Of a stretch of DNA of 20,245 bases, positions 1-17,478 are shown in pieces. The stretch's first letter is position 1; each line of letters opens with the position of its first letter. Origin of the DNA: a virus. The notes beneath the pieces were generated by a model. The model was not told the DNA's origin. It made no database searches and saw only the letters and a list, made by a program, of their open reading frames with translations. Position numbers and translations under genes: made by a program. The DNA is taken from IMG/VR virus record IMGVR_UViG_3300021139_000202, positions 1-20,245 of that record. The stretch is one strand, 5' to 3'.

Positions 1-495
1 TTATCCCACATAGGCGACATCTACGAGCCGGGAGTATCAGAAAAATTAGTGGAACTTGTCAATAGAAACCAAGACTGGAAATTCTTTTTTTTAGGGCAAC
101 GTTTTGATTGGATAGAAATGCACCTAACGGGAAATAACTGTTATAGGCACGACGGGGCAACAACGATACAGTTTTACAAGCTAATGCACGAATATAACCC
201 TTGTATCTTCTTTTATCCGCTTAATAACAATTTATTCAACCAAAGCAAAAGTAATTGCAGTTGGCTTGAGTCAACGAATAGTGGCGCAGCATATTTTGGT
301 AACAAAGATTTGCCGGAATTTGATAAGGATTGTATTTTTGACTTAAAACTATTAAAGGAAGCGATTGAAGGGTCGCACCACGAGGGTTTGGCAAAAGCAA
401 ATAAGGAAAGTTGGGAACTGATATGTGATGAATATTTGCTAAGTAAAGTAAATAAATTAAGGCTAAAAAGGATAGAAAAGCTATTTGAGATATGA
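1..495 (+). CDS. Glycosyltransferase-like protein, C-terminal part (5' end outside window)
   Basis: The frame is open to base 1, giving at least 164 residues; a GTG at 49 is in frame but is probably internal. The visible part looks like the C-terminal Rossmann half of a GT-B glycosyltransferase. An opening GDIYEP segment is followed by a predicted strand ending FFFLG (residues 28-32). Then comes a region with YPLNNNLFNQSKSN and WLES (72-91), which resembles the nucleotide-sugar binding stretch (PL.DN.FN.SKSN.KWLE) of many phage and bacterial glycosyltransferases. A short helical tail rich in Lys, Leu and Glu closes it. The donor sugar and the acceptor cannot be told; phage enzymes of this type modify DNA, virion proteins or host glycans. 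Its TGA stop overlaps the next ATG (ATGA, 492-495), so it is translationally coupled to the GroES-like gene. The family call rests on motif resemblance only. Confidence 0.55.
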   Translation, partial: LSHIGDIYEPGVSEKLVELVNRNQDWKFFFLGQRFDWIEMHLTGNNCYRHDGATTIQFYKLMHEYNPCIFFYPLNNNLFNQSKSNCSWLESTNSGAAYFGNKDLPEFDKDCIFDLKLLKEAIEGSHHEGLAKANKESWELICDEYLLSKVNKLRLKRIEKLFEI

Positions 496-1349
496 AAGTA
501 CTGCATAATAGGATATTAGTAAGGTTTCACGAGGATATAGAGACTCCGTTAGGGCTTGTTATCCCCGAAAGGTATGCAGTACACGTACAACAAAACGAAG
601 ACGATAACGAGACCCGTAAGGGTGTTACAACAGACAGGCGGTTAATCAACCCACAAAAGGTAACTATACTAAGCGGTAAACATGAGGGTAGGGATGCATT
701 TGTGTATTACGGGGCTTATGAGATAGCCAAATGGGTAGACGACGAAAGGGCTATTATTGACGAAGCGTTGATATACTTTTTTATTGGCGGCACTATTGAA
801 ATGGCTGAAAATACCTATTTAGGTTATGAGGTGTTTGTAGAACCCGAAAAGACACCTGCGGGAATTATACTAAGCACAACCATTGAAGAAAAAGACAAAA
901 TAAGCATTAGAATATCACATATCCCTGAAAATAGCATAGCCAATATTGGCGACCTTGTAACAACGATTGACGGAAACCAATATTGGTTGATATATAATGG
1001 TCAACGGTATATTAAGCTAAGGGAAAGTGAAATAGCGGCAGTAAACGGAAATCCTGTTAATGAAAATCTTTTAGTGGAATATATCTACGGCAAGGATGAT
1101 GAGGAAAGGATGGAAAAGAATCAAGAGATATACAATCATATTGACTTTTGCCGTAAACATGGTTGGCATATAGAGGGTATGGAATTTAAACCCGTTCCCG
1201 AACCCAAGACAATAAAAGCTAAAGTTCTAAAAGGGGATATGGAGGGTGAAGAAATTATTGTTAACAGAAATTTTGGCGTAAAGGTAGGAGGTAATAAATG
1301 GATAATATCGAAAGAGTCTGTGACATTGATGACCCTAACTACACCATGA
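492..1349 (+). CDS. Tandem GroES-like (Cpn10-fold) protein, probable phage co-chaperonin
   Basis: The 285-residue protein is about three times the length of GroES. Residues 1-100 start like a Cpn10 chain (VLHNRILVRF) and are followed by a mobile-loop-like segment, ETPLGLVIPE (17-26), where LVI sits at the place of the GroES IVL tripeptide. Residues 110-185 repeat the plan: YEVFVEP, then EKTPAGIILS (119-128), close to the GroES KSAGGIVL loop, then IGDLVTTIDG and a closing IKLRESEIAAV like the GroES end. A third small beta segment (240-281) has a Lys-rich entry and ends in KESVTLM. In the cell it would bind a host or phage GroEL-type ring through the loops and help fold capsid or other virion proteins, as T4 gp31 does. 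That role is inferred. It sits just before the terminase genes and overlaps both neighbours. The GroES-like reading is fairly firm; the function is less so. Confidence 0.65.
   Translation: MKVLHNRILVRFHEDIETPLGLVIPERYAVHVQQNEDDNETRKGVTTDRRLINPQKVTILSGKHEGRDAFVYYGAYEIAKWVDDERAIIDEALIYFFIGGTIEMAENTYLGYEVFVEPEKTPAGIILSTTIEEKDKISIRISHIPENSIANIGDLVTTIDGNQYWLIYNGQRYIKLRESEIAAVNGNPVNENLLVEYIYGKDDEERMEKNQEIYNHIDFCRKHGWHIEGMEFKPVPEPKTIKAKVLKGDMEGEEIIVNRNFGVKVGGNKWIISKESVTLMTLTTP
1286..1291 (+). promoter_or_regulatory. Strong Shine-Dalgarno site for the winged-helix gene
   Basis: AGGAGG lies 6 nt before the ATG at 1298, a near-perfect spacing. Most other starts in this window have no such site. It lies inside the GroES-like coding sequence, so it favours the upstream start (1298) over the ATGA-overlap start at 1346. 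Confidence 0.55.
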
Positions 1350-2026: not shown

Positions 2027-2436
2027 AAAAACCCGATTTAAAAGGATTAAGTAAAACGCAAATTGCGTATATTGAGTACCTTGAAGGATGTCTTAACGGG
2101 TCATCTGAACTTATTATGGCACTTAACACAGCAAGTAGGGTTTTTGCGGATGACTTAAACTTAATTTGCGATGGTGATGCTGTTGAATGGGTGTCAGAGG
2201 GGGATAGTGATGTAGCTAAATCGAGGCTTACACTTTTATCAGCAGATGCCAAAGATAAAACTTTTGAAAGAATTATGGTTTTATTTGATAAATTTGATAA
2301 AATAAAGGCGTTGAGTCAACATTTTAAAGGTGGGTTGGCTTCGCAACAAGAGCAATCAAAGGTTAGGTTAAAACCCGGTGGAAACATCTATGAACACGTA
2401 TTAGAGGAAAGAAAAAATGGCCGTTCAAGAGTTTGA
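2023..2436 (+). CDS. Small protein preceding large terminase; alternative small-terminase candidate
   Basis: This 137-residue protein is not recognised by family. The N-terminus (LSKTQIAYIEYLEGCLNG) could form a short helical pair. The middle is acidic, and residues 76-104 look like an amphipathic helix rich in Asp, Lys and Phe. The tail (RLKPGGNIYEHVLEERKNGR) is charged. It starts in an ATGA overlap with the winged-helix gene and its last 20 nt overlap the start of the large terminase. A helical oligomer next to TerL is the usual shape and place of a small terminase subunit, so this and the previous gene compete for that role. No clear helix-turn-helix is seen, which weakens the case. Confidence 0.6.
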   Translation: MKKPDLKGLSKTQIAYIEYLEGCLNGSSELIMALNTASRVFADDLNLICDGDAVEWVSEGDSDVAKSRLTLLSADAKDKTFERIMVLFDKFDKIKALSQHFKGGLASQQEQSKVRLKPGGNIYEHVLEERKNGRSRV

Positions 2437-4513
2437 AATTTATGAAGGTTTAATTTATAAAACGCCCGAAATACCTAAAAAGATTAGGGGTGACAAACTT
2501 AAAGTAAAAGACCAGTATTGGACAAGGCATACCGAATACGAACAATGGGATTGGAACGATGACCCCAAATTAGGGGCTGTTTGGTGGGATGACCCCGAAC
2601 CCGGACAGCTTGAGTGGTATTACGACGAAATAGACCGCATCCTTTATGGTGAATGGGTAATGATTGAAGGCCGCCCTACCTATCTTAATCACTTCGCATA
2701 TTTTTACCATCAGTGGTTCGTCCTCAAGGAAGGCGGTTATCCCGAATACCGTGACACTTCTTTATATTTCCTAAGATTTATTGAATTAGTATTTAATGAC
2801 CCTAAATGCAGGGGCGGGAATACCATGAAAGGCAGACGTAAGGGTGTATCCTCTATGTGTATGTCTGTTATGCTTCAGTTTGGTGTGGTATTAATGAAAA
2901 ATACCGAACAGGGTATCACTTCAAAGTCAAACAAGGACGCTGAAAAGATATTTCAATTAATGCTTGTAAACGGTTACGCTAACCTACCCAACTTTTTAAA
3001 ACCCCGTATTAGTGGTAATGACTTGCCTAAAACCACAATGAATATCATTAAAAAGGCGGGTGGTATCACAAAGGAAAAGGGTATAGGTGCATCAAAAGAA
3101 GGTTTAAATAACAAGATTGAATTTCGCGCGCCTGCAAGTAACGTGTTTGACGGTGATGGTTTATGGTTTTTACTACTTGATGAGGCTGCAAAATGGGAAG
3201 ATGTAAATATCTATGAATACATGGAAATAGCATCCCAAAGTATTGTAGCGGGTAAGAATATAGGGCGAATGATGCTTATTACAACGGTTAACAAAGGTGA
3301 TAAGGGTGGTGATAACTACAAATTAGTTTGGCGAGAGTCAAGCCAGCTTGTACGTGATGTATTAGGGCAGACACAAAACAAACTATACAGGCAGTTTATT
3401 CCCGGTTATATGGGTGGCAGGGATGGTGGATGGATTGATAAATACGGTAATTCTGTATGGGATACACCAACGGAAGAACAAATGGAATGGCTTAAAAACG
3501 ACCCAAACACCCTTGACCCGACAATGGGGTGTAAGGCTTATTGTGAGTTACAGCGAAAGATAAAAGCCAACGATCCTGAAAAATTACAGGAAGAAATACG
3601 GATGTTTCCGTTCAACCCCGAAGAAGTATTTAATACAGCCAACAACCAATGTCATTTTAACATTAAAGAATTAAATGACCAAGAAGAATGGGTAGAAAGC
3701 CAATTAAACGGTAAGAAAGAATACGGGCGACAAATGTCGTTTAAAATGGCTTCAAATGGCGAAAAATATCCCGTAGATGACCCGCAAGGGATGTGGTGGA
3801 TAGATAAACTTATTGATGACAATAATAAATCAGTATTTAAGGGTAGTATAAAATGCCCTGACAATGTGGCTTTCGGGGCTGCGGGTATGGACACTTATGC
3901 CAACTCAAGAACATCTGTAGAAAATGGTTCGGATGCTTGTATTATTATTATGTCAAGGTATAGTTATCTTGACCCTGAAAACTCATACGCACCAATAGCT
4001 ATGTTTTTAGGTCATCCAAAGACTAAAGAAGAATTTCATACACAAGTAGCGTATGGTTTGGAATATTACGGTGTAAAAATGCTTGCGGAACGTTCGCCTA
4101 CTGATTGGGAAGATTATTTCACAAGCCCATTAAGGCGTTTAGCGTCCCCTTTGGATGCTGAAAAAAAACATGGATATTTGATTGTTACAAAAAGGTACGA
4201 TGGTTCTGAGGTTTATGGTGCTACCACAACGGGAAAGGAAACGATGGAACAACATTTAACTGTTCAAGTAGAGTATGCTTTAAACAATATGAGGAAAATA
4301 AAATTTTTAAGGTTATTGAGGGATATGAAAAAGTTTAACATTCAAGATCGTACAGATTATGACGCTTGTATGGCTTTTGGATACGCTTTAATGGCTTTAC
4401 AAGCAACTGTAAAAACCACAAACGAAGTGAAACGAAACAATCTTTCTATTATACCTATTTGGAAACCAAGAGAAAAAACGCCACAAACTTCTTTTTATCG
4501 AAAAAGTTCTTAA
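2417..4513 (+). CDS. terL: Terminase large subunit (packaging ATPase-nuclease)
   Basis: The 698-residue protein has the parts of a phage packaging motor. The N-terminal region is rich in Trp and Asp and contains GEWVMIEGRPTYLNHFAYFY (78-97), the segment common before terminase ATPase domains. The ATPase has a Walker A-like loop GRRKGVSS (139-146), in which the usual GKS/T order is replaced by KGVSS. Walker B is WFLLLDEA (250-257), with Asp255-Glu256, and a coupling-type motif MLITT is at 286-290. The C-terminal RNase H-like nuclease begins at GMDTY (490-494, Asp492), with further acidic positions at Glu558 and in DRTDYD (644-649). It would dock on the portal below, pump DNA into the procapsid and cut the concatemer. 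GAGGAAA lies upstream of the ATG. The start overlaps the preceding gene by 20 nt. The assignment is firm. Confidence 0.93.
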   Translation: MAVQEFEIYEGLIYKTPEIPKKIRGDKLKVKDQYWTRHTEYEQWDWNDDPKLGAVWWDDPEPGQLEWYYDEIDRILYGEWVMIEGRPTYLNHFAYFYHQWFVLKEGGYPEYRDTSLYFLRFIELVFNDPKCRGGNTMKGRRKGVSSMCMSVMLQFGVVLMKNTEQGITSKSNKDAEKIFQLMLVNGYANLPNFLKPRISGNDLPKTTMNIIKKAGGITKEKGIGASKEGLNNKIEFRAPASNVFDGDGLWFLLLDEAAKWEDVNIYEYMEIASQSIVAGKNIGRMMLITTVNKGDKGGDNYKLVWRESSQLVRDVLGQTQNKLYRQFIPGYMGGRDGGWIDKYGNSVWDTPTEEQMEWLKNDPNTLDPTMGCKAYCELQRKIKANDPEKLQEEIRMFPFNPEEVFNTANNQCHFNIKELNDQEEWVESQLNGKKEYGRQMSFKMASNGEKYPVDDPQGMWWIDKLIDDNNKSVFKGSIKCPDNVAFGAAGMDTYANSRTSVENGSDACIIIMSRYSYLDPENSYAPIAMFLGHPKTKEEFHTQVAYGLEYYGVKMLAERSPTDWEDYFTSPLRRLASPLDAEKKHGYLIVTKRYDGSEVYGATTTGKETMEQHLTVQVEYALNNMRKIKFLRLLRDMKKFNIQDRTDYDACMAFGYALMALQATVKTTNEVKRNNLSIIPIWKPREKTPQTSFYRKSS

Positions 4514-4533: not shown

Positions 4534-6972
4534 ATGCAGCCACTTACGCAACTCACGGAAAACCCCCTTTCGCCCGATAAACAGAAAAATACCGAAGATT
4601 TTGGATTACGGGTAATACGCAGTTGTTACAATCGTTGGAAAAACGGATACGGTGGTGAAACATACGTTAACCGAATAGCACGTATGTCTAAGAATAGACT
4701 ATATGCTATGGGTAAACAACCAATGGAACAGTTTCGTGATATGGTTAAGATTGAGGGGATGCCTGTGGTTATAAACCTTGACTACTCACCGCTTGCTGTT
4801 GCTGTGCCTCTTTTAAATGCTAAAATAGACAGATACCTACAGCGTGAAGAACGCATAAAGTGTAAGGCTTTTGGCCCAATTAGCCAAAACAAAAAGAAAA
4901 AGGACAAGGACGAGGCAAAGTATAAAATGAATTATCGTGCCGCTATCCAAGACCTGCAATCAAAGTCAGGGCTACAGCTTGAACAATTTTCAGACGAAGA
5001 CCCAACATCGGAACTTGAACTCAATATAAAATTCAAGACAACTTACAAGCAGAAAGAAGAAATAATCATGGAACAGGCAATGAGGCTTGTTTTTGAGCAA
5101 AACGAATGGCAGGATGTTATTAAGCCCCGTTTGCTTATGGATGTTTTTTGTGCGGGTTACTCTATAACCAAAACAGAACTTGATGGCAATGGATGGATAA
5201 AAACCCCGTGGGTGTCACCTGAAAGTTTTATCACTTCTTATTCAGAATATGACGATTTTAGGGATTGGCAATGGCAGGGACAGCGATTGAGCGTATCTAT
5301 TACCGAAATCAGGTTAAGATACCCCGGCAAATTTTCAGAACAAGAACTTTGGTCGTTAGCTAACAGATTTAAGGGAAAATACGGAAACGCTACGGAATGG
5401 TATTGCGAATGGTCTGATTACTTCAATACAGCCGCAGCACGACCTTATGACGCTGTGAACGTAGAAATAGTTGACTTGTATTACAAAACACTGTATAACC
5501 TTGAATACACCGAAGTAACGAATAAATACGGTAAGACAAACTTAATAGCCCCCGATAAGGTTAAACCCAATAATCCGCAGGTAACTGGAAAAGAAAAATC
5601 ACCACCGTACTATGTGGCATATCATGGTGTTTGGATTATTGATACCGACCATGTTCTTGAATGGGGTTTAGCAAAAGATATGCTTAAACCCAATAGCAAT
5701 TTGGTTGAAATAAGAAGCCCATATACTGTACACATGTACGCCAACAATAAGTGTCGTAACACCCCACTCGTGGAAACAATGATACCACTTATTGATATAA
5801 TGCAAAATATTCACTTACAAGCATTAAGGATTATAGCGGTAACAGCACCAGATGGTTTTAATATTGACCTTTTGGGATTATCCAATATTGATATGGGGGA
5901 GGGTGTTGGTATTATCAGCCCCATGCAGGCTTGGGGTATCTATCTGCAAACAGGTAACCAATACTTCATGTCAAAAACAGAAGGTGGCGAAGACGTTAAA
6001 CCCCCTATACAACCGCAAAATAATCAGTTCTCAAATAAATTAGAACAGCTTGACGGTCAATGGTGGTCAGCTTATAAAAAGCTACAAATCATTACGGGGG
6101 ACAATAACTTAGCACAGGGAAATATCACCAATCAGGACGTAGCTAATAAAACATTAGAAACAGCCACCGAACTTGCTGAAAGCCCATCAAACTACGCATA
6201 CAGGTCGTATTTAATGAATTACAAGGGTACGGCTAAGAATGTAGAACTATTACTACTTGATAAATTCTTTTTAAAAGATGATAGTTTTGACGGCTACACT
6301 AAGGCATTGGGCGAGGAAGATGTTAAATACATGAGAAATATGGCAAGCGAAGGCTTGGAAATGCTCATGTTTGATACAGATATTAAGGTAACCAATGATG
6401 ACGCTGAAAAAGCAAGGCTTGATAAATTCATTGAAATAGCACTTCAAAAAGAGCAAATAACCCCTGCGGATGTGGCAAGGCTTGATATGGTTGAAGACCA
6501 AACGTATAGGGCGTTCTTGCTTGCGCAGGCGGTACAGGAAAAACGTGACGCTGATGCTAAAATAGCCCAACAGAACAGCCAAAATAACGTTATGCAGAAT
6601 AAGGCCGCTGCTGATGCAAAAGGTCAACACGACATTGCTTTAGAGCAGTTGGCGCATAAGAACAAAATGGAGTTACAGCAAAGCGAGTTAGAGGCTAAGA
6701 CAACCATGAAGGCGATGGAGGGTAATACAGCCTTAGAAGGTAAAATAATTGACTCTATACTTTCTAACCCCGAAGCAAAACTAAGCGATATACCTGAATT
6801 TATATGGAAGAAATTAGGTATTACCGATGCTAATACACAACAGTTGATATTGTCATCTATGCAAAAACAAGCACAAATACAACAACAACAGGCTATGGCT
6901 CAACAACAAGCACAACAGCAACAAAGGCAACAACAAGGTCAAGGACAGCCACAACAACAAGTAGCGGCATAG
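4534..6972 (+). CDS. Portal protein with glutamine-rich C-terminal tail
   Basis: The 812-residue protein follows the terminase after 20 nt and has portal features. They include an N-terminal helical region with GMPVVINLDYSPLAVAVPLLNAKID (75-99), a central section VSPESFITSYSEYDDFRDWQW (227-247) typical of the portal stem/wing, then helices around residues 410-440 (LVETMIPLIDIMQNIHLQAL) and 530-575. It would form the dodecameric ring at one capsid vertex, bind terminase during packaging and later the tail rings. Residues 665-725 are Gln/Lys/Glu-rich and probably coiled coil; 779-810 are almost pure Gln with some Ala and Arg, which could be a disordered or barrel-like extension into the capsid. 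The length fits long podovirus and crAss-like portals. It stops at TAG. No Shine-Dalgarno site is seen before the ATG. Confidence 0.87.
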   Translation: MQPLTQLTENPLSPDKQKNTEDFGLRVIRSCYNRWKNGYGGETYVNRIARMSKNRLYAMGKQPMEQFRDMVKIEGMPVVINLDYSPLAVAVPLLNAKIDRYLQREERIKCKAFGPISQNKKKKDKDEAKYKMNYRAAIQDLQSKSGLQLEQFSDEDPTSELELNIKFKTTYKQKEEIIMEQAMRLVFEQNEWQDVIKPRLLMDVFCAGYSITKTELDGNGWIKTPWVSPESFITSYSEYDDFRDWQWQGQRLSVSITEIRLRYPGKFSEQELWSLANRFKGKYGNATEWYCEWSDYFNTAAARPYDAVNVEIVDLYYKTLYNLEYTEVTNKYGKTNLIAPDKVKPNNPQVTGKEKSPPYYVAYHGVWIIDTDHVLEWGLAKDMLKPNSNLVEIRSPYTVHMYANNKCRNTPLVETMIPLIDIMQNIHLQALRIIAVTAPDGFNIDLLGLSNIDMGEGVGIISPMQAWGIYLQTGNQYFMSKTEGGEDVKPPIQPQNNQFSNKLEQLDGQWWSAYKKLQIITGDNNLAQGNITNQDVANKTLETATELAESPSNYAYRSYLMNYKGTAKNVELLLLDKFFLKDDSFDGYTKALGEEDVKYMRNMASEGLEMLMFDTDIKVTNDDAEKARLDKFIEIALQKEQITPADVARLDMVEDQTYRAFLLAQAVQEKRDADAKIAQQNSQNNVMQNKAAADAKGQHDIALEQLAHKNKMELQQSELEAKTTMKAMEGNTALEGKIIDSILSNPEAKLSDIPEFIWKKLGITDANTQQLILSSMQKQAQIQQQQAMAQQQAQQQQRQQQGQGQPQQQVAA
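6868..6969 (+). repeat. CAA/CAG-rich tract encoding the portal polyglutamine tail
   Basis: Imperfect CAA/CAG codon runs encode portal residues 779-812, mostly Gln with Ala, Arg and Gly between. Such low-complexity DNA can change length by slippage, so copy number may vary between related phages. Confidence 0.75.
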
Positions 6973-10722: not shown

Positions 10723-11886
10723 GTGGCATACAGCAATGACCCCATAAATTTAGCCTACCAATTACTCAAAAAAAGAGCTAATTCACGAGGTGCTTCGAGT
10801 AATATTACCCCTAATCAATTCAATCAATTTTGGAATAGGGCTGAATTAAAGTTTTTTAATAACGAATATAAATCATACGCACAAACACAAATAGTATCGG
10901 ATGCTGTTAGTAAATGGCTATCTGACCCACAGTACATCCCTATTGATGCCACAGGACGCTTTAATTTCTACACAGGGATGAGTATGATACACGTTGATAG
11001 TATGGACTCGTTCTTACCCGCAACTACGGCTACGGGGCAGATAAACGGCTATACGGTAACGGGTGGTTCGGGATACACATCAGGAACATATACAGTTAAT
11101 TTAACGGGGGGTACAGGTTCGCTTGCAACAGCAACGGCAACGGTTGTGGGTGGGGTTGTTACAACAGTTATACTAACCAATCCCGGCATAGGATATACGG
11201 TAAATGACAACTTAACCGCAACAATACCCGGAGGTTCGGGATGGAAAATAGTAATAACAGGGATAGGTCAAACAATCCCCGGACAAGTAAGACGTGTTGA
11301 AAAAGAATTTCTTTCAGCATCACTTAGTTCTACCTATGATTCACCAACACCCGATTTCCCTGTATATACACAATTCTCTACTTGGTTTCAATTTTATCCA
11401 GTAACAACAGGACTTGCAAAATTGGTTTATTTAAAGCAGCCTGTTTACTCTTATTGGAATTACCTGATGCAGGGGTATATCAGTACTCTATCGGGTCTTA
11501 CGGGAGGTACAGGATACACTAATGGCACTTATAACAATGTTCCTTTAACTGGAGGGTTAGGTAATTCTGCTTTAGCCACGATAGTAGTAGCGGGCGGTGC
11601 GGTTACGAGTGTTACGGTAACAAATCCGGGTAAGTTATATGCAATAAATGATATACTATCAGCAAGTAATACCTTTTTAGGGGGCGCAGGTTCGGGCTTT
11701 CAAATAATAGTGACAAGTATTATAAATGCAAGACCTTACTATACATCTACAGGGTCGATACAGCCACTTTGGAATGATAATGATATTTCTTATATTGTTG
11801 ACTTAGCCCTTGAAGATATCGCAATAGCAGCGAGGGACGAACAATTACAAGCATTTGCGCAATCAACTGAAAGGAGTACACAATAA
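10723..11886 (+). CDS. Portal-proximal adaptor/ring-like protein carrying two beta modules
   Basis: The start is GTG, 16 nt after a promoter-like element. The 387-residue protein begins with a helical part (PINLAYQLLKKRANSRG and NQFNQFWNRAELKFF, 8-45), continues into a segment IPIDATGRFNFYTGMSMIHVDSM (72-94), and ends in helices (355-380). This helix plus beta plan resembles head-tail adaptor or ring proteins that sit under the portal in podoviruses. Two Gly/Thr-rich beta modules are inserted, at residues 108-181 and 253-333, related to each other and to one in the muzzle-like protein. Without them the core is about 230 residues, the size of its two downstream neighbours. The stop and next start overlap as TAATG. 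The adaptor role is inferred from place and plan. Confidence 0.6.
   Translation: MAYSNDPINLAYQLLKKRANSRGASSNITPNQFNQFWNRAELKFFNNEYKSYAQTQIVSDAVSKWLSDPQYIPIDATGRFNFYTGMSMIHVDSMDSFLPATTATGQINGYTVTGGSGYTSGTYTVNLTGGTGSLATATATVVGGVVTTVILTNPGIGYTVNDNLTATIPGGSGWKIVITGIGQTIPGQVRRVEKEFLSASLSSTYDSPTPDFPVYTQFSTWFQFYPVTTGLAKLVYLKQPVYSYWNYLMQGYISTLSGLTGGTGYTNGTYNNVPLTGGLGNSALATIVVAGGAVTSVTVTNPGKLYAINDILSASNTFLGGAGSGFQIIVTSIINARPYYTSTGSIQPLWNDNDISYIVDLALEDIAIAARDEQLQAFAQSTERSTQ
11044..11265 (+). repeat. Beta module copy A (adaptor-like gene)
   Basis: It encodes residues 108-181 with the marks GGSGYTSGTY, VNLTGGTG, VVGGVVTTVILTNPGIGY and NDNL. The same order of marks occurs in copies B and C, so the three are homologous at protein level. 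This copy is the most diverged in DNA sequence. Confidence 0.75.
11479..11721 (+). repeat. Beta module copy B (adaptor-like gene)
   Basis: It encodes residues 253-333 with GGTGYTNGTYNNVPLTGG, AGGAVTSVTVTNPG and GGAGSGFQI. A 14-nt stretch at 11521-11534 is identical to 15445-15458 in copy C, and the flanking codons are nearly so, suggesting more recent shared origin with copy C than with copy A. Confidence 0.75.
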
Positions 11887-12518: not shown

Positions 12519-13300
12519 GTTCAAAAATAAGTCTATCGCAGGTGGTTGCTGAACTTATCGACAGCATGGATAGGTCTGAACACTATTTCAGAAGACTATA
12601 TCGTATTGGTGTAAGGGGCGCAAGGAAGTTTAATATGGATATTTACGGCCAGTTTCGTAGTGTTCTATTAGATGTTCCCACGAGTGGTGTTGTTCCTTTC
12701 CCAAAAGACTACTTACAGTATTCCATGCTTGGCGTTATCAATAATCAGGGCGAGGCAGTACCTATTAAACATAATGAGCAACTTTCAAAGTTAAAGCAAC
12801 AATATTTAGCGTCACAAGAGCAAATAATTCCCGTTCCAAAAGTACCGACAGGTATTGTTGGGGGATTTGAGAACCCACAGGGTTTTCCTTTTTATTGGAT
12901 GAATTACGTTTGGGGGGATTGTGGTTATGTTCACCTATACGGACTTGGTGGCGGTTCACAAGAGTTTGGTTGGTTTACGATTGATGAGATTAACCAATGC
13001 TTTCTAATAGCCCCTAATTACCCATATACGACAATTATGCTCGAATACCTATCAGATGGGTTCGATATTAATTGCAACGATTATATGGTAGATATACGTG
13101 CCGTAGATGCTATGCAATGGTGGATACGTTGGATGGATAGAGTAGATACACCTAAACGTTGGGGTAGAGGGGACGTTCAATACGCACAACAGCAGTATGT
13201 ATTGCAGTCAAGGATGGCTAAGGCAAGGATAAACCACGCCAACATCAACGAAATGCAAACAGAGTTTAGAAAGAATATTAAATTAACAGCCAAAGCGTAA
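12515..13300 (+). CDS. Adaptor/ring-like protein, third of three
   Basis: The 261-residue protein has an N-terminal helical part (SLSQVVAELIDSMDRSEHYFRRLYRIGVRGARKF) and then LDVPTSGVVPFPKDYLQYSMLGVINNQGEAVPIKHNEQL, a beta pattern common in phage tail-adaptor proteins where a polar strand precedes PKDY. Trp, Tyr and Gly-rich loops follow, then YPYTTIMLEYLSDGFD and helices with AVDAMQWWIRWMDRV. The C-terminal helix is basic. It would form a ring next to the muzzle, whose gene follows in a TAATG overlap. GGAGGG lies 7 nt before the ATG and may serve as a weak ribosome site. The adaptor role is inferred from pattern and gene order. Confidence 0.62.
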   Translation: MSSKISLSQVVAELIDSMDRSEHYFRRLYRIGVRGARKFNMDIYGQFRSVLLDVPTSGVVPFPKDYLQYSMLGVINNQGEAVPIKHNEQLSKLKQQYLASQEQIIPVPKVPTGIVGGFENPQGFPFYWMNYVWGDCGYVHLYGLGGGSQEFGWFTIDEINQCFLIAPNYPYTTIMLEYLSDGFDINCNDYMVDIRAVDAMQWWIRWMDRVDTPKRWGRGDVQYAQQQYVLQSRMAKARINHANINEMQTEFRKNIKLTAKA

Positions 13301-16300
13301 TGGGTCTTAATGATGAAAACAAGTTATTTTATCAAGGCGGGTTAGACCAAGACTCCGCACCCGAAGCTGTTGACCCCAATGATTACATTAATGGCGTTAA
13401 TATCCGTAATACAGGAACGGCATTAGGGGAAGAAGGCTATATAACGAATATAGAGTCAAATATAGCCCTTTCAGGCTCTTTATTGCCGGGGGTGAATGAT
13501 GTTATAGGTGGCGGTAAATTCGACGATACAGGGCAGATAGTGGGCTTTAGATTCAATTCTGCGGGTAACTGTCAGATACTTTTATATTCAACATCCACAC
13601 AAACATACAAAGTAATATATACGGACGTAACGGATAGTGGCGGTGCTACACTTTTACCATTAAACCCCCAACAACCCGTAACAGCGATACTTGTCAATAA
13701 AACCTATTTGGTATGGTGGGCTAAAGGGCTTGAAGTAGGTTACACTAATTTAAATACCCTTGCATCGGGTGGCTACGGAACGGTTTTATGGGAAGATTTG
13801 TCGCTGTTAAAGCCACAATGTATGATTCCCCCAACGTGGCAATTCGGTAGCGATGCGGGAACACCGTCAAATTTCCTTTATTCTAACTTAGCGCAATTTT
13901 CAGTCCAGTACGTAAATACGGACTACAACTATTCAGCATGGAGTACATGGAGTAGCAGGGCAACGCCATATCAAGAAAACACGCCAACATTAGGTGCTAA
14001 TGTAAGCCAAAATAACTATCTGATAGTAACGGTAAATATCGGGTCGGCAAGGGCTAATATTGTCAATATAGCGTGCCGTTTTGGTAATAACATATTTTAC
14101 ACTATAAAATCGGTTACAAGGGCTTATATCCTTGCTTTGCCCAATTCAAGTGTGAATGTTGCTACGGAAGTGTATGAGGCGTATAATTCAGCCAATAATA
14201 CGTATTCCTTTGCTTTCTATAATAACACGATAAATATCCCTGTTGCAACAGAAGAAACAGCGTTAAACTACGATTATATATGGCCTGCAAATTCAGGTGC
14301 TTTAATCAACGGTAATATCATAGGGCTTGCTGATTGGCAGACACTATATCCAAGACCCGATACAAGCGTAACCATAAGTGCTGCGGGATATAATCCGAAT
14401 ATATCCATTCCTGTTGCTACAGCCCCGGCAAATCCGATTACAATGACCAATAAGTTTTTAGGGTCAAGTGGTAGTGGTGCAGGATCTCACCAAAGGATAA
14501 TGTATTTTACATTAAGTGGTAGCCCTAATACAAATGATAAAATAGTTATTGTAACGGCTGATATACGGGATTCTACAAACACAAGGGATTATAGTTATGT
14601 TGTTCCGGGTTCACAAACAGGGAACTTAGCTGCGGTTGTTGCTACTTTAGTAAGCTATTTGCCAAGTGCGTCATACGTAAATAATAGCGGTGTTTACACA
14701 GTAACATTTATAGGTATATCGTATCAAAGTGGGTTAAACTTTGGTGTGCAATTATACTTTTCAGGCGCAACAACAACAAATTCAATACCATCAATCCCCG
14801 ATAACTCACAAGGTCAATTAGCTTTGTCGTACAGGGATTATAAAGGGCGTTTTTTACCATTATCAACGGATAAAACATACCAATGGACATCACCAAGTTA
14901 TGCACAGGTAAACGGTAACGCTATTGAGATAAATTGGACGATAAATACCCCGGCAGCCCCGGCAGGTGCAGTAGACTACCAATGGCTTATTACAGCCCCA
15001 CAGGTGAATAAAATAGTAGACACTATTGCTACCTTACTTATTTTTAAAGGGACGTGGAACGCATTAACTAATACCCCGACATTAGCGGTAAATTCAGGTA
15101 ATGGAGGTGACACCTATCAAATAACAGAGGGTTGTGCGCCAATAAACACAGCGCACTATACCAATTTGGGAACAAATGACACGTATAATACAAGTGACTA
15201 TATTGTAGATAATTCACTTAGTTATGATGTTATTCCTAAAGACTTTGGTAATTTAACTAATAATAGCTTTCTTGCTTTCTCATTAAACGCATTGCGCCTT
15301 TATGATACAACCTACCAACAAGAGGGTGTTAATGCTTTGTTGGCGTATGATTATAGTCCGGGTGACAGGTGTACACTACATTATTGGATAGGTAACGTGG
15401 GGGCAATAGCGACCTATACTACCACGGGCGGGTCAAGCTACACAAATGGCACTTATAATAATGTTAACCTTACAGGTGGTACAGGAACAGGCGCACAGGC
15501 GACAATAACCATATCGGGCGGTGCAGTAACGGGGATAGTGATTACCAATCCGGGAACGGGATATGTTGTAGGGGATACATTAACTTGCGCTAATACTTTA
15601 ATTGGTGGTACAGGGTCAGGATGGAGTATTAGCGTTACCGCTTTGGTAACAAATGGCACTAATTACTTCAATAATCCTTGTATTGACCTTGCTGTATTGG
15701 GATATGATGCCGGAAATTACATTGTTAAGGTTGAAAATAGCGCAGCATTAAGCGTTTCGGGTGGTCACATTTATTACAATGGTAATCAAATAGATGTAAG
15801 GAACATATTTCTACGTCTTTACTCCCCTGCCCTGCAAAATCAGACAAGCCAAACATCAAGCCAAAGTACAACAGTTTGGTATGAGATAGGACAACGATTC
15901 CCAATAACCAACGGGCTACATACCGTATTAAACGGGATAATAACAGATGGTGGAGTATATTATAAGACAAGGCAATTCCCCGATGGTATCTTACCGTTCA
16001 CCAACCCGCCAATACAAACAATAGCAACGGACTTAAATTACTCCGATTTCTATCCATCAACGTATTGGTCACAAGGTAGGACAAGGACGTATTACGATGA
16101 ACTTGAACAGACAACACAAGCTGCAAGTATCATTACAAGCCAAAACTATATATTGGGGTCTAAGAACAATGGGTTAAACAGGTTTTATCCGTCTACAATA
16201 TATGGTGAGGGTAATGGTCAAACATCATCGGCACAAGGCGGTATTCAGATTATGTGGCAACGGGGTAATATCCTTGTTATAGTTCAAGAACTAAACGTAT

Positions 16301-17478
16301 TTTATTGCCCTGTAAACGTTGCGTACACCCAATTAAACAATACAGAAACCCAAGAGAGTATATCAGAGGCGTTATTGAATAACGGCAGGTATGCAAGTGA
16401 AAGCATTGGTATAGGGACGTTAAAGGCGTTCTGCACAAGGTTCGATCGGGCGTATTTTATTTCACCACAATATTCAGAACCTTTTGAAATAGATGTTGAG
16501 GCGGGGATACGAAGCATATCGGGTAAAATGTCTAAATACTTTAAGAGTATCATTCAATCAGCAGTACAGCAGGGATTGGGAATATTCTTATACTATAATG
16601 AGTTTTACGAAGAATTGACCTTATGTATTCAGTCGCAAAGCGGTGTTATCTTACAGTTCCCCTTTAGTTCAGCCAACTGGAACGCTTTTAATAGTTATAG
16701 TATTACCCCAAGCGAGGTAAATACCACAAATAACGGTGCGCATTGTACAGCAAGCTATAATTCATCTACAGGTATTGTAACTTATACACCAAGTACTAAT
16801 TATGTGGGTAGTGATTCAGCAACTTTTATTTTCAATCCGGGTACAGGCAATGTAACGGTAAACAACTGTTTAGCATGGACAGCAGGGGTAACAACGGTAA
16901 ATCCGTTCTCGTTCCTACCTATTACAAATGCTTTGCTTTCAACAGCGTATATTTCTAACTCTATTTTGGTAGCAGGGCCGACAATTCCCGTAGCAATAAG
17001 CATTACGGGGGGTACGTACTCAATAAACGGTGGTGCTTATACAAGTTCAGCCGGAACAACAAACGCAGGGGATGTAATTACTGTTAAGCAGACAAGTTCG
17101 GGCAGTAACAGCACCCTTACCAATGCGGTATTGACAATAGGAAGTACAAGCGGTACATTTTCTGTAACGACACAAGCAAGCACTCCGGCCTATAACGTGA
17201 ATATCTATAACAATAGCTCAAGCGTGTTGATGGTTGGCGGTAGTATAGGCGCAACGGTATTAGTTTGGGGTAATATAAATCCGGGTGGTTATCAATCATA
17301 TAGCGTAGCACCGGGAACATATACAGTACAGGTAAAAACAGGGTCAGGTGGCACAAGGTATGTGAACTGTACGGGCAAAACAGAGCAAAGTGGTGGTAGT
17401 GGCTTTACAGCAAACTTTACAGGGGTAGTAATTAGTTCAGGTTCAATAACTGTTATAGATTTACAAGATTTCGCTTAA
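13300..17478 (+). CDS. Muzzle/tail-stabilisation-like protein with added Ig-like domains
   Basis: This 1392-residue protein is the largest in the window. Its N-terminus NKLFYQGGLDQDSAPEAVDP then YINGVNIR (7-36) matches the GG(M/L)xxDxxxxxxPxxYxxxxNxR opening known in muzzle or tail-stabilisation proteins of crAss-like and other Bacteroidota phages. A long beta-rich body follows, with a Gly/Thr module at 706-782. Residues 1043-1125 (FCTRFDRAYFISPQYSEPFEIDVEAGIRS, then YYNEFYEELTLCI) fit the late part of that family. The last 255 residues are different: an Ig-like segment with VTYTPSTNYVGSDSATFIF (1160-1178), a second with ISITGGTYSINGGAY (1233-1247), and a final beta domain. These look adhesive. 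It would close the tail tip and perhaps touch the host surface. The usual family C-terminal end seems to be in the next gene. Confidence 0.68.
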   Translation: MGLNDENKLFYQGGLDQDSAPEAVDPNDYINGVNIRNTGTALGEEGYITNIESNIALSGSLLPGVNDVIGGGKFDDTGQIVGFRFNSAGNCQILLYSTSTQTYKVIYTDVTDSGGATLLPLNPQQPVTAILVNKTYLVWWAKGLEVGYTNLNTLASGGYGTVLWEDLSLLKPQCMIPPTWQFGSDAGTPSNFLYSNLAQFSVQYVNTDYNYSAWSTWSSRATPYQENTPTLGANVSQNNYLIVTVNIGSARANIVNIACRFGNNIFYTIKSVTRAYILALPNSSVNVATEVYEAYNSANNTYSFAFYNNTINIPVATEETALNYDYIWPANSGALINGNIIGLADWQTLYPRPDTSVTISAAGYNPNISIPVATAPANPITMTNKFLGSSGSGAGSHQRIMYFTLSGSPNTNDKIVIVTADIRDSTNTRDYSYVVPGSQTGNLAAVVATLVSYLPSASYVNNSGVYTVTFIGISYQSGLNFGVQLYFSGATTTNSIPSIPDNSQGQLALSYRDYKGRFLPLSTDKTYQWTSPSYAQVNGNAIEINWTINTPAAPAGAVDYQWLITAPQVNKIVDTIATLLIFKGTWNALTNTPTLAVNSGNGGDTYQITEGCAPINTAHYTNLGTNDTYNTSDYIVDNSLSYDVIPKDFGNLTNNSFLAFSLNALRLYDTTYQQEGVNALLAYDYSPGDRCTLHYWIGNVGAIATYTTTGGSSYTNGTYNNVNLTGGTGTGAQATITISGGAVTGIVITNPGTGYVVGDTLTCANTLIGGTGSGWSISVTALVTNGTNYFNNPCIDLAVLGYDAGNYIVKVENSAALSVSGGHIYYNGNQIDVRNIFLRLYSPALQNQTSQTSSQSTTVWYEIGQRFPITNGLHTVLNGIITDGGVYYKTRQFPDGILPFTNPPIQTIATDLNYSDFYPSTYWSQGRTRTYYDELEQTTQAASIITSQNYILGSKNNGLNRFYPSTIYGEGNGQTSSAQGGIQIMWQRGNILVIVQELNVFYCPVNVAYTQLNNTETQESISEALLNNGRYASESIGIGTLKAFCTRFDRAYFISPQYSEPFEIDVEAGIRSISGKMSKYFKSIIQSAVQQGLGIFLYYNEFYEELTLCIQSQSGVILQFPFSSANWNAFNSYSITPSEVNTTNNGAHCTASYNSSTGIVTYTPSTNYVGSDSATFIFNPGTGNVTVNNCLAWTAGVTTVNPFSFLPITNALLSTAYISNSILVAGPTIPVAISITGGTYSINGGAYTSSAGTTNAGDVITVKQTSSGSNSTLTNAVLTIGSTSGTFSVTTQASTPAYNVNIYNNSSSVLMVGGSIGATVLVWGNINPGGYQSYSVAPGTYTVQVKTGSGGTRYVNCTGKTEQSGGSGFTANFTGVVISSGSITVIDLQDFA
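15415..15645 (+). repeat. Beta module copy C (muzzle-like gene)
   Basis: It encodes residues 706-782 of the muzzle-like protein with GGSSYTNGTYNNVNLTGG, SGGAVTGIVITNPGTGY, VGDTL and GGTGSGWSI. It matches copies A and B of the adaptor-like gene 3.7-4.4 kb upstream. Confidence 0.75.

Follow-up and report, generated by a model that had tools for sequence, protein, structure and literature searches.

A three-domain Cpn10-like protein encoded beside phage terminase genes, and its likely role as a lid for GroEL

Introduction

What kind of protein is encoded directly before the packaging genes in the viral record IMGVR_UViG_3300021139_000202, and could it act as a co-chaperonin? The stretch analysed (positions 1–20,245 of that record, 20,245 nt, hereafter the window) carries a gene of 285 codons that a preliminary description, made from the sequence alone, read as one protein with two GroES-like halves and a third small beta segment. 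Textbook co-chaperonins are seven-fold rings of identical single domains, and the preliminary description rightly noted that GroES and T4 gp31 are single-domain proteins. Tandem Cpn10 co-chaperonins are nonetheless known from chloroplasts (Cpn20/21), where they serve seven-fold chaperonins and the native form is most likely a mixed seven-domain ring (PMC5780408). T4 gp31, a single domain that forms a heptamer, is the precedent for a co-chaperonin lid serving phage head proteins (PMC6318259).

Results

Gene order

The gene overlaps the adjoining ORFs by a few to about 50 bases and belongs to a single gene run, the main members of which are as follows:

492–1349, + strand: predicted three-domain Cpn10-like co-chaperonin gene, 285 aa (open frame; family-profile match; AF2 model)
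1298–2026, + strand: overlapping ORF 3′ of the co-chaperonin gene, 242 aa (neighbour conserved in relatives)
2023–2436, + strand: probable small terminase subunit (TerS), 137 aa (position only)
2417–4513, + strand: large terminase subunit, TerL (PHROG_6681, E = 2.2e-69)
4534–6972, + strand: portal protein (PHROG_6547, E = 2e-53)

The location directly before the packaging genes had been correctly described, with two short ORFs (1298–2026 and 2023–2436) lying between the gene and TerL. The 242 aa ORF matched no family in Pfam and PHROG scans, and its C-terminus is winged-helix-like (YFLTPNGHAAMDRF). Similar ORFs adjoin the co-chaperonin gene of several freshwater relatives and, by inspection, the family gene in the related loci L007, L008, L015 and L116. 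The 137 aa ORF has no Pfam or PHROG match and, from its position, is probably TerS.

At the left end of the window (1–495) is a truncated ORF that resembles the C-terminal portion of a 323 aa ORF in L008 (1957–2928) and has a weak PHROG glycosyltransferase match (E = 0.027). A Gly/Thr-rich repeat (GGTGYTNGTYNN...LTGG...) is found twice in a 387 aa ORF (10723–11886) and once in a 1392 aa ORF (13300–17478), where it overlaps a weak head-closure PHROG match (phrog_460, E = 4.8e-4).

Three Cpn10-like domains

Profile comparison and structure prediction divide the protein into three consecutive parts (D1–D3):

492–800, + strand: D1, aa 1–103, Cpn10-like (hhalign; AF2 of D1 alone)
555–563, + strand: D1 mobile-loop tripeptide LVI, aa 22–24 (conserved hydrophobic position; low-pLDDT loop)
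801–1052, + strand: D2, aa 104–187, Cpn10-like (hhalign; VIA)
864–872, + strand: D2 mobile-loop tripeptide IIL, aa 125–127 (GIIL/GIYL motif in relatives)
1053–1337, + strand: D3, aa 188–282, Cpn10-like, present only in some relatives (hhalign; VIA)
1092–1157, + strand: helical insertion in the loop region of D3, aa 201–222 (DSSP helix, AF2 model)
1176–1187, + strand: GMEF, aa 229–232, the D3 site matching the mobile loop (alignment position only)

When aligned to the GroES profile with hhalign, the family alignments of all three domains gave matches: D1 (19 sequences) at 90.0% (E = 1.6e-6), D2 at 96.8% (E = 2.9e-10) and D3 (10 sequences) at 91.4% (E = 9.1e-7), the last over nearly its full length. 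Reversed and shuffled control alignments reached at most 2.5%. The D3 sequences of the window sub-lineage alone (three sequences) gave no match (1.1%), so that D3 was assigned from the wider set of D3 sequences together with the structure. A seven-protein MAFFT alignment appeared unreliable in D2 and larger sets were used instead. The diversity of a broad GroES alignment made it unsuitable as a search query.

For the window protein, AF2 with 26 sequences gave a model with a mean pLDDT of 83.9 and a pTM of 0.76; its only PDB match below E = 1e-3 by Foldseek is 7ekq_R (E = 1.5e-4), named a Cpn20 co-chaperonin subunit in the sequence table. A Cpn10 beta-barrel is predicted in each of the three domains, clearly in D2 and moderately in D1 and D3 (Z 5–7). 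In VIA comparisons, the D2 model aligns with Thermus thermophilus Cpn10 (4v4o_P) at Z 9.4, with an rmsd of 2.9 over 84 residues, and the D3 model with T4 gp31 (1g31_A) at Z 6.0 over 79 residues. D1 folded alone has a pLDDT of 75.8; its best 14 chains by VIA are all Cpn10 (Z 7.2 to 5.3), with gp31 at 5.1, and its top Foldseek rows are also Cpn10 but with weak E-values (best 0.056). In a viral structure library, the best matches include a 304 aa unnamed protein and the chaperonin cpn10 of Cellulophaga phage phi18:3.

The proposal of two GroES-like halves with mobile-loop-like motifs is therefore supported by both profile comparison and predicted structure. The "third small beta segment" of the preliminary description (about 95 C-terminal residues) proved to be a third Cpn10-like domain by hhalign, AF2 and VIA, so the domain count is three and not two. 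Of the two halves, Pfam alone was weakly positive for Cpn10 in the first and negative in the second, but profile–profile comparison was positive in all parts.

Two structural details vary. The sequence of the helical insertion in D3 is also found in L095 and is absent from L015 and L007. The roof beta-hairpin of GroES was not found in D1 or D2, where the GroES roof residues fall in alignment gaps; it is present in the N-terminal domain of relatives of the L099 type.

Mobile-loop motifs

The motifs LVI (22–24), IIL (125–127), IGD (152–154) and SEIAAV (179–184) are exactly where the preliminary description had placed them. As evidence of Cpn10 the motifs by themselves were rejected, because they are near chance: the pattern G-hydrophobic-x-hydrophobic occurs four times against 1.8 expected in the shuffled window protein (P = 0.10), about one in ten shuffles equalling the count.

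LVI and IIL sit where GroES has IVL, and a contact with GroEL is predicted at these sites. Position 22 of D1 is L, I or F in every non-redundant family member (64/64), and in the AF2 model residues 19–33, which include this site, have a pLDDT below 50, as a mobile loop should show. The D2 motif (GIIL/GIYL) is kept across much of the freshwater clade and is degenerate in the marine two-domain members. In D3, the GMEF of the window aligns with LDL-type motifs of other D3-bearing relatives.

Membership of a phage co-chaperonin family

Pfam Cpn10 matches the window protein over residues 2–31 at E = 0.01, with 16.3 bits against a gathering cut-off of 21.1 bits. On sequence comparison it is a divergent Cpn10 homologue and, because its score is below the cut-off, not a formal member of PF00166. 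As a direct query it found no phage record, only near-identical contigs; among PDB sequences it found no GroES chain, the one weak match being Rrp40; and against the PHROG models, including PHROG_13932, it had no meaningful match. The protein is too divergent for direct searches, and the link to the family was therefore made through intermediates, with the neighbouring TerL as a guide to relatives.

Among isolates, the TerL relatives are Bacteroidota phages, namely Cellulophaga phage phi19:3, Flavobacterium elemo phages and Maribacter phage Panino. In all of these a gene that precedes TerL, immediately or nearly so, bears the annotation co-chaperonin GroES/cpn10, and the isolate proteins match PHROG_13932 ("co-chaperonin GroES"). 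Homologues of both GroEL and GroES have been reported for Panino (PMC11590407), and Cpn10 is listed among the core genes of the Pervagoviridae (PMC8776804). More than 100 related loci were obtained from metagenomic viral contigs in two scans guided by the terminase, and all 88 of the related TerL loci with 1500 bases or more of sequence before TerL have the family gene upstream of it on the same strand. A scan of genome contigs with the TerL of the window clade found no prophage. In some close relatives TerL contains an intein-like insert, in frame and about 350 aa long: the TerL frame of L008 (4660–7752) is of 1030 aa, and the TerL matches of L119, L120, L121, L122 and L123 span about 3.1 kb.

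With L001, L095 and the window left out, the family profile matched the window protein at E = 1.6e-33 when built from long members and at E = 4e-32 when built from all members. The seed with which the member set was first gathered had contained the window protein; L007, L008 and L015 had already been found (E = 1e-10 to 1e-4) with a profile made from just the four isolate proteins. The Pfam Cpn10 cut-off is passed by L099, L104 (6.2e-15), L107 (1.3e-5), L123 (1.3e-5) and the second domain of phi19:3 (1.6e-7), and 15 of 26 family members match at E = 0.1 or better. Judged by profile homology and gene order, the window protein descends from a two-domain Cpn10-like family that is fixed beside the terminase genes, and is a divergent member of it.

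Architecture in relatives

Most family members are of 180–208 aa and have two domains (D1D2). The arrangement D1D2 plus D3 is seen in the window, L095, L096, L097, L008, L015 and L123, and also in L113, L118 and L007. In L099, L104, L119 and others, a canonical Cpn10 with a roof hairpin is fused before D1D2. L116 has a separate 104 aa GroES gene that overlaps the end of the tandem gene, and L115 an 88 aa GroES gene about 0.9 kb upstream. As L113, L118 and L007 are on long branches, the tree does not separate repeated gain from loss, and D3 may have been gained several times or else lost; the five changes counted on the tree include one artefact, L102, which was coded as two-domain merely because its contig is cut.

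A separate single-domain GroES accompanies the tandem gene in 12 of 20 relatives. Nine of the 20 encode their own GroEL, and all nine of these also have a separate single-domain GroES besides the tandem gene, indicating that these phages invest in the chaperonin system. Marine relatives (e.g., L014, 1465–3278) carry a full GroEL and, nearby, a short single-domain GroES of about 85 aa in addition to the tandem gene. No GroEL was found in eight long freshwater relatives (58–76 kb), and neither GroEL nor a single-domain GroES was seen in the contigs overlapping the window, which are fragments of 10.6 and 29 kb. The preliminary description had suggested a ring of different symmetry or a divergent chaperonin as partner; since no GroEL gene was found in the near relatives of the window, the partner is more likely to be the host's own GroEL.

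Discussion

Relation to known co-chaperonins

The phage family is already known and annotated as GroES/cpn10 in many isolate genomes. Like the PHROG_13932 proteins (Cellulophaga phi19:3 gp101 and phi38:1, Flavobacterium elemo, Maribacter Panino), the window protein lies just upstream of TerL, has the D1–D2 arrangement and shares profile homology; it differs in its length (285 aa against 180–208 aa), in its third domain and in being beyond the reach of direct searches. With GroES/Cpn10 (PF00166) it has the fold and the position of the mobile loop in common, but it has three domains per chain and scores below the Pfam cut-off.

In the chloroplast proteins Cpn20, Cpn21 and Cpn23 (PDB 7ekq), too, a single chain carries Cpn10 domains head to tail, like D1 and D2 of the window protein before the additional D3, and Cpn20 is the best structural match to the full model. 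The Cpn20 type differs in having two domains, a chloroplast origin and clear sequence similarity to GroES, and the phage and chloroplast tandems are probably independent inventions. Cpn20 coexists with single-domain Cpn10, and the chains of 7ekq (one Cpn11, one Cpn23 and two Cpn20) add up to seven domains. T4 gp31 (1g31, 2cgt) is, like the window protein, a phage co-chaperonin highly diverged from GroES, and is matched by D3 (Z 6.0) and by D1 (Z 5.1); it is a single-domain heptamer, in contrast to the three-domain window protein. The roof hairpin is absent from gp31, as it is from D1 and D2.

Proposed function

It is likely that the protein is a three-domain Cpn10-like co-chaperonin that acts as a lid on the host GroEL for the folding of phage head proteins. 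Several chains, alone or mixed with a single-domain GroES of the host or phage, would form the lid, which would dock on the host GroEL through its mobile loops and close the folding chamber over phage proteins, the likeliest being the major capsid protein or other proteins of the head. In marine relatives the partner may instead be the phage GroEL. From the fold, the three domains, the synteny and the conserved D1 loop position, we infer that lid formation by oligomerisation and binding to GroEL are the most likely behaviour, and the substrate and ring stoichiometry are proposed on the same grounds. The lid is favoured by the invariably hydrophobic GroEL-contacting position of D1 (64/64) and by the occurrence of the gene in 88 of 88 related TerL loci. 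Points against it are the sub-threshold Pfam score, the roof hairpin missing from the D1 and D2 alignments, the degenerate D2 loop motif of marine members and the lack of a GroES match to D3 of the window sub-lineage taken alone. A plain substitute for GroES was considered and rejected, since a separate single-domain GroES is found as well in 12 of the 20 relatives, and a gene kept by phages with a normal GroES cannot be a simple replacement for it.

If the Cpn10 fold had been reused in head assembly, for instance in a scaffold, an adaptor for packaging or a component of the virion, and the link to chaperonins lost, then the invariant position beside the terminase genes, the persistence of the gene in many phages that have an ordinary GroES as well, the missing roof hairpin and the degenerate D2 loop of marine members would all be accommodated. 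Such a reuse is unlikely, however, given that the D1 mobile-loop position has stayed hydrophobic throughout the family and that several relatives fuse or overlap the gene with a canonical GroES; in the phi19:3 record, the label virion structural protein is given to other genes, and this gene is named by similarity only. A decoy or regulator that occupies the host GroEL, blocking host folding or a chaperonin-dependent defence, would need mobile loops only and no closed ring, and would tolerate odd domain numbers and the loss of the roof. The placement of the gene in a run of head and packaging genes, and its retention in phages that bring a GroEL and a GroES of their own, make this distinctly improbable.

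Chance resemblance, in which the domains are small beta-barrels unrelated to Cpn10, such as SH3-like barrels or dehydrogenase domains with a GroES-like fold, is strongly disfavoured and has hardly any probability left. Dehydrogenase domains do appear in the fold searches (Z about 5) and the motif counts alone are not significant, but true Cpn10s rank highest for D1, D2 and the tandem, scores above the curated Pfam cut-off are reached by several relatives, and the shuffled and reversed controls fail. A co-chaperonin lid remains the preferred reading.

The repeated pairing of single and tandem forms, by overlap or fusion, suggests by analogy a mixed seven-domain ring like that of chloroplasts, a hypothesis that is doubtful as it stands. 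In this reading, two- or three-domain chains might combine with one single-domain GroES in an asymmetric lid (2+2+2+1 or 3+3+1 = 7), and lineages might have solved the odd number separately, by an overlapping GroES gene, an N-terminal fusion, a C-terminal third domain or the GroES of the host. If true, the mixed lid would be the phage counterpart of the chloroplast Cpn20/Cpn10 hetero-ring, and the three-domain form a new architecture.

Significance

In the open-access literature searched, no description was found of the tandem structure of the phage protein, its triple form or the pairing of single and tandem genes in phages. What makes the family of interest is that nature has produced a lid of several domains; the fold itself is not new. 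Across a large clade of Bacteroidota phages, a co-chaperonin of more than one domain has become fixed beside the packaging genes, with a third domain at either end depending on the lineage, and the annotation of a widespread gene is refined, its tandem architecture having been hidden under plain "GroES" labels. As natural concatemers, these proteins allow one to ask how many lid positions GroEL needs, and which, how 2n or 3n lid domains can be fitted to a seven-fold ring, and for what reason the tandem gene persists in phages with an ordinary GroES.
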